Assembly: GCA_026392845.1 (NCBI GenBank)
Contig: JAPLBJ010000004.1
Coordinates: 1 to 46,629 of the forward strand
Length of the DNA: 46,629 nt
DNA from: Actinomycetota bacterium
GTDB lineage: Bacteria > Actinomycetota > Actinomycetes > Nanopelagicales > Nanopelagicaceae
Reading direction: 5' to 3'
In this document: positions 12,631 through 14,058 of the stretch, piece by piece
Layout: each line of letters begins with the position of its first letter
Position numbering within the stretch: position 1 is the first letter of the stretch
Position numbers and translations under genes: made by a program
Notes under the pieces: generated by a model
What the model was told of the DNA's origin: nothing
The model's input: only the letters and a program-made list of their open reading frames with translations
Database searches by the model: none

Positions 12631-14058
12631 TTAGTTCTTTGCCAATTCAGCTGCTTTACGTTCCACATCATCTAGCCCACCGCACATAAAGAATGCCTGC
12701 TCTGGAACATGGTCGTACTTTCCATCGGCAAGTGCTTCAAATGCTGAAATAGTTTCTGTCAAAGGAACGAATGAACCATCTAGGCCAGTAAAGACCTTTG
12801 CCACAAATGTGTTCTGTGACAAGAAGCGCTGGATTCGACGCGCACGCCCAACGAGAATACGATCTTCTTCTGAAAGTTAATCGATACCAAGAATCGCAAT
12901 GATGTCGTGAAGATCTGTGTAACGCTGCAAGATCTGCTTGATGCGGTTAGCAACACGGAAGTGGTGCTCTCCGATATAGCGTGGATCCAAAATACGTGAT
13001 GATGAATCCAGTGGATCTACAGCAGGATAAATTCCAAGTTCTGAAATTGGACGTGAGAGCACTGTTGTTGCATCTAAGTGCGCAAATGTTGTGTGTGGTG
13101 CTGGGTCAGTAATGTCATCTGCAGGAACATAAATTGCCTGCATCGATGTAATTGAGTGACCACGTGTAGAAGTAATGCGCTCTTGCAACTGTCCCATTTC
13201 ATCTGCAAGTGTTGGCTGGTAACCCACAGCAGATGGCATACGACCGAGAAGAGTTGATACTTCAGAACCTGCTTGTGTAAAGCGGAAAATATTGTCGATG
13301 AAGAGCAATACATCCTGCTTTTGCACATCGCGGAAATACTCAGCCATTGTGAGCGCAGAAAGTGCAACACGAAGACGCGTTCCAGGTGGTTCATCCATCT
13401 GGCCGAAGACCAATGCGGTCTTATTGATAACGCCAGTCTCTGTCATTTCCAAGAAAAGGTCGTTACCTTCACGAGTACGCTCACCAACACCAGCGAATAC
13501 AGATACACCACCGAAGTTTTCTGCTACGCGATAAATCATTTCCTGAATCAAAACAGTCTTGCCTACACCTGCACCACCAAATAGACCGATTTTTCCACCC
13601 TTTACATACGGTGTAAGTAGATCGATAACTTTGATACCTGTTTCAAACATCTCTGTCTTTGATTCGAGTTGATCGAATGCAGGTGCATTACGGTGAATTG
13701 GCCAACGCTCTTTGATATCGAGTGATGATGTTGGAACGTCGAGTGATTCTCCAAGAGTGTTGAACACGTGTCCCTTAGTTACATCGCCTACTGGAACCAT
13801 GATTGGGTCACCGGTATCGGTTACTTCGGTACCGCGCACCATTCCATCGGTAGGTTGCATCGAGATTGCACGTACGAGGTTGTCACCAATGTGTAGCGCA
13901 ACTTCCATCGTCAAAGTACTCGTCACACCAGCCATCGTCACATCGACGTGGAGAGCATTGAAGATCGCTGGCATTGAATCAGCAGGGAATTCAATATCCA
14001 CCACTGGTCCGATGACTCGAGCTACGCGCCCTTTATTGGATGTTTTTACCGACATCAT
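12631..14058 (-). CDS. atpD: ATP synthase F1 beta subunit, interrupted by an in-frame TAA
   Basis: Catalytic beta subunit of the ATP synthase: Walker A GGAGVGKT at residues 161-168, VGERTREGNDL, and DNIFRFTQAGSEVS follow the family closely. Read through, the frame gives 475 residues, the normal length. However, codon 394 (12877-12879) is TAA: the frame reads ILGID-stop-LSEEDRILVGRARRIQRFL, where the family has Glu (ILGIDELSEED). One base change (GAA to TAA) explains it, and the frame and conservation on both sides are intact. As written, the product would lack 82 C-terminal residues. Since the gene is essential in its operon, a sequencing or consensus error or a rare allele is likelier than loss. 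Start is either of two tandem ATGs (14058 or 14055) overlapping the atpG TGA. Confidence 0.9.

Follow-up and report, generated by a model that had tools for sequence, protein, structure and literature searches.

An in-frame TAA at the DELSEED motif of an actinobacterial atpD gene is very probably a consensus error

The window analyzed here is a 46,629-nucleotide stretch, positions 1 to 46,629 of contig JAPLBJ010000004.1, from the Actinomycetota draft assembly GCA_026392845.1 (1,357,029 bases in 73 contigs, 94.5% complete). It contains ATP synthase genes in the order atpA-atpG-atpD-atpC, of which atpA, atpG, and atpC, named from their translations, have open frames. The features of atpD, which encodes the beta subunit of F1 ATP synthase, are collected in Table 1. 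From its ATG at position 14058, the reading frame reaches a TAA after 393 amino acids, where the minus strand reads GGT ATC GAT TAA CTT TCA GAA GAA GAT CGT, and beyond it the frame runs on to the natural stop, giving 475 codons with one stop inside. The 393 residues before the stop matched the TIGR01039 atpD profile with 672.9 bits (cut-off, 462.85), the intact beta protein of the close relative G105 scoring 802.6 bits. A search with the 475-residue protein of a relative recovered the window gene (G000:C15:12634-14058:-) with 99% identity over residues 1-475 and the single TAA. The initial annotation had described an in-frame TAA at a conserved Glu, with frame and conservation continuing to a C terminus of normal length, and both statements are borne out. 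Its count of 82 C-terminal residues lost, with codon 394 included, is also correct if the stop is taken at face value. One atpD copy is present, and no second intact copy was found in this 94.5% complete assembly. The best named relatives by beta sequence are actinobacterial and include a Candidatus Nanopelagicales MAG and strain IMCC19121, which we take to be freshwater bacteria. Searches of a plasmid collection returned only weak matches, to three Acinetobacter records.

Table 1. Features of the atpD reading frame in the window
Feature	Position	Strand	Description
atpD reading frame, F1 ATP synthase subunit beta	12631..14058	-	475 codons plus natural stop, with one internal TAA
atpD natural stop, TAA	12631-12633	-	
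In-frame TAA, atpD codon 394	12877..12879	-	First Glu of DELSEED; Glu in 109 of 109 fetched relatives
Codon 384, CAC (His)	12907..12909	-	Private A>C at base 12907; Gln in 109 of 109 relatives
Codon 381, ACA (Thr)	12916..12918	-	Private A>C at base 12917; Lys in 94 of 109 relatives, Thr in 1 of 109
Cluster of all three private non-synonymous substitutions in atpD	12879..12917	-	39 bases

The window gene thus resembles known F1 beta subunits in its profile match and gene order and departs from them in the TAA within DELSEED and in two unusual missense changes just before it. In the beta subunit, the conserved DELSEED motif is described as lying at the helix-turn-helix tip, where it spans residues 380-386 in Escherichia coli (PMC9138118). 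In a thermophilic F1, removal of its charges, or of part of the motif, is reported to have hardly changed torque (PMC4052266), so the Glu at codon 394 need not itself be essential. A stop at this codon removes far more than one Glu.

Comparison with close relatives, which the initial annotation had suggested as a check, was carried out on 109 fetched loci, namely 29 from the genus (L005-L033) and 80 from genome contigs (L034-L113), two sets in which the same species may occur twice; the first-listed tblastn piece was counted for each locus. All 109 relatives encode Gln at codon 384 and Glu at codon 394, and at codon 381 they encode Lys (94), Gln (5), Arg (5), Asn (4), or Thr (1). Residues were then compared for murA, atpC, atpD, atpG, and atpA (84 to 546 codons each) at an identity of at least 50% for atpA and at least 35% for the others, the relatives here including three further rows (L114-L116; 112 in all) that repeat genomes already present as L005-L007. 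Only codons 384 and 394 of atpD were without any matching relative, and the window residue at codon 381 was matched by 1 of 112. Every codon of atpA (546 codons), atpG (304), and atpC (84) was matched by at least two relatives, and murA (425 codons) had three codons with a single matching relative, two among its poorly covered first residues and the third being codon 16 (1 of 29). No unseen residue was found in murA, atpC, atpG, or atpA in columns with at least 15 relatives. Across the murA-atpC-atpD-atpG-atpA stretch, the oddness is confined to the 39 bases of the cluster.

When 135 genus genomes were searched with the full beta protein, 125 gave some match; among the matches listed, a hand tally that left out paralogue rows of about 24% identity found 97 atpD matches in 96 genomes that span codon 394, and the only one with a stop was that of the window itself. 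A 44-base window pattern, searched with a tolerance of up to 3 mismatches, was found in 13 of the 135 genomes, and in each of the other 12, codon 384 is CAA and codon 394 is GAA. A stop common to a clade was thus not seen within the genus among the listed matches or the pattern matches.

To place these changes against the background of the gene, private substitutions were defined as sites at which G105 and G107, the nearest genomes of the genus (97% and 96% identical in DNA over 1,438 bases), agree with each other and differ from the window. The beta proteins of these two genomes are identical over 475 amino acids and free of stops, and no gap separates them from the window gene. There are 33 private substitutions in atpD, of which 30 are synonymous and 3 are not: AAA>ACA at codon 381, CAA>CAC at codon 384, and GAA>TAA at codon 394. 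The first two precede the stop by 13 and 10 codons, and between positions 12848 and 13338 the window has no private substitution besides these three. Three codons drawn at random from 475 would fall within a 14-codon span with a probability of about 0.002, a test that was picked post hoc. The earlier proposal that one substitution, GAA to TAA, explains the site holds for the stop codon alone; it missed the two linked missense changes, and once three private non-synonymous substitutions are seen to be linked within 39 bases, the relative likelihood of the possible explanations shifts. A third, more distant relative (L116) was ignored from about codon 45 of the codon alignment, where its column is out of register after a gap; its genome (also present as L007) reads GAA at codon 394. 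Comparison with near relatives covered the first 16.6 kb of the window. Apart from atpD, every frame shared with G105 and G107 in which the window has a stop overlaps another shared frame, judged by coordinates, and so is probably not a gene. Three longer stop-to-stop frames of the more distant G116 (L116) also meet window stops, which were taken probably to precede start codons because the same genes are open against G107.

Read along the gene strand, codons 381 and 384 each show A>C and codon 394 shows G>T, so all 3 non-synonymous changes belong to the A/C or G/T class, compared with 2 of the 30 private synonymous changes in atpD (Fisher p 0.0018, again a test picked post hoc) and with 77 of the 412 private changes over the 7,938 positions compared with both relatives. 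A MiSeq study (PMC4381044) describes A and C as being read by the same laser, and likewise G and T, with intensities correlated within each pair; over the final 50 bp of reads, C took the place of A in 66% (R1) and 85% (R2) of cases and T that of G in 45% (R1) and 40% (R2). PMC6053417 restates that miscalls most often interchange A with C and G with T, and lists C>A and G>T as common, but in that study's own samples A>C was among the rarest substitutions. All three atpD changes are of the kinds prominent in the first of these spectra, under which their direction would fit reads running along the gene strand, on a platform that was presumably Illumina. The likeness to same-laser errors of four-color Illumina chemistry would lie in the substitution class, the single strand, and the tight clustering; the difference is that here the errors would have had to survive into the consensus. 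At adequate depth, such miscalls are normally outvoted.

The initial annotation had listed consensus error, strain polymorphism, stop readthrough, and true loss of the C terminus without ranking them. Consensus error is by far the best supported of the four. We regard it as highly probable that the TAA at codon 394 arose in sequencing or assembly, along with two neighboring errors (codons 384 and 381), since the stop belongs to a very small group of unusual changes that resemble machine errors. Close relatives lack the stop, the site is conserved, and all non-synonymous private changes of the gene lie within 39 bases against an otherwise synonymous background. Since one of the 109 relatives also has Thr at codon 381, the change at that codon, taken alone, could be real. 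This stretch of atpD may have been thinly covered and bridged by one or a few short reads along the gene strand, whose low-quality part would have held the A>C, A>C, and G>T miscalls; with nothing better to vote with, the assembler would have passed them into the draft consensus. Five genus contigs (G042:C54, G088:C107, G044:C109, G113:C26, and G107:C50) begin inside atpD, their matches starting at contig base 1 or 2, which makes the gene a recurrent break point in assemblies of this genus. In the living organism, atpD very probably encodes a normal, complete beta subunit of 475 amino acids.

Most of the remaining probability goes to a rare but real loss-of-function allele that the assembly happened to pick, so that some cells would carry a 393-residue beta subunit lacking most of DELSEED and what follows it. 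The stop is unambiguous in the consensus, and the single atpD of the assembly leaves no intact second copy there, both as such an allele would have it. With the other 30 private changes in atpD all synonymous, however, any loss would have to be very recent, and drift in a dead gene does not predict two further unusual changes within 39 bases. The atpA, atpG, and atpC frames are open and have no residues unseen in relatives, and an organism of this kind would be expected to depend on ATP synthase for life, which also counts against a null allele. Altogether, we consider a real allele of this kind improbable. Pseudogene decay was rejected on the grounds that none of the other 30 private changes alters an amino acid: lesions are not spread over the gene, which has no gap, one stop, and non-synonymous changes only in the cluster.

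Still less probable is a genuine TAA that is read through to full-length beta, whether programmed or by a suppressor. The continuation of frame and conservation to the normal C terminus would be expected of readthrough, but the stop is not conserved in the genus, as the tally of listed spanning matches shows, and codons 381 and 384 would be left unexplained. No UUA anticodon occurs among the 36 tRNA genes found, one of which has an ambiguous anticodon (ARAGORN "gacg"); as the assembly is 94.5% complete, the missing UUA tRNA is not proof. We give just as little credence to a TAA that is real and fixed in the lineage, with beta produced by efficient readthrough or with an F1 that lives without the C-terminal part of beta.

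Reassignment of TAA to an amino acid in this organism is weakest and can be set aside as next to impossible: nothing beyond the open frame speaks for it, whereas TAA ends 10 of the 16 window genes checked, the natural end of atpD included, TAA also closes atpA, atpD, and murA in both G105 and G107, and two release factor-type genes with PCRF domains are present in open frames (365 and 369 codons) that the match covers without meeting a stop. Recoding was therefore rejected on TAA usage, release factors, and the tRNA set, and the initial view that it was unlikely, argued from the many window genes ending in TAA, holds. For recoding, suppression, and pseudogene decay alike, support is poor, and codons 381 and 384 are left unexplained by all three.

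If the stop is a consensus error, the finding is an ordinary one of small biological weight, and recognizing it very probably removes a false claim of a truncated essential energy enzyme. It serves as a quality flag, marking this atpD stretch of the draft as unfit for claims about the protein. It also suggests a cheap test, requiring no reads, for nonsense codons in draft genomes, in which companion private missense changes of the same-laser type are sought within a read length of the stop. A genuine stop, by contrast, would be informative about the extent of the beta C-terminal part that an ATP synthase needs.

Three further observations were made during the analysis. The tRNA-like gene with the ambiguous anticodon (L165, G000:C37:778-1051, positions 100-174, minus strand), reported by ARAGORN as "tRNA-???", scored 51.6 bits in a tRNA family search and could be a degenerate tRNA, one with an expanded anticodon loop, or another sequence error. 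G107 carries on C50 a second partial atpD with 86% DNA identity to the window, which possibly comes from a co-binned strain. Private synonymous differences between the window atpD and those of G105 and G107 are frequent in roughly the first 190 codons (on the side of 13339-14058) and absent from codons 241-403 (12848-13338), a pattern that may reflect a recombination mosaic or strong local conservation.
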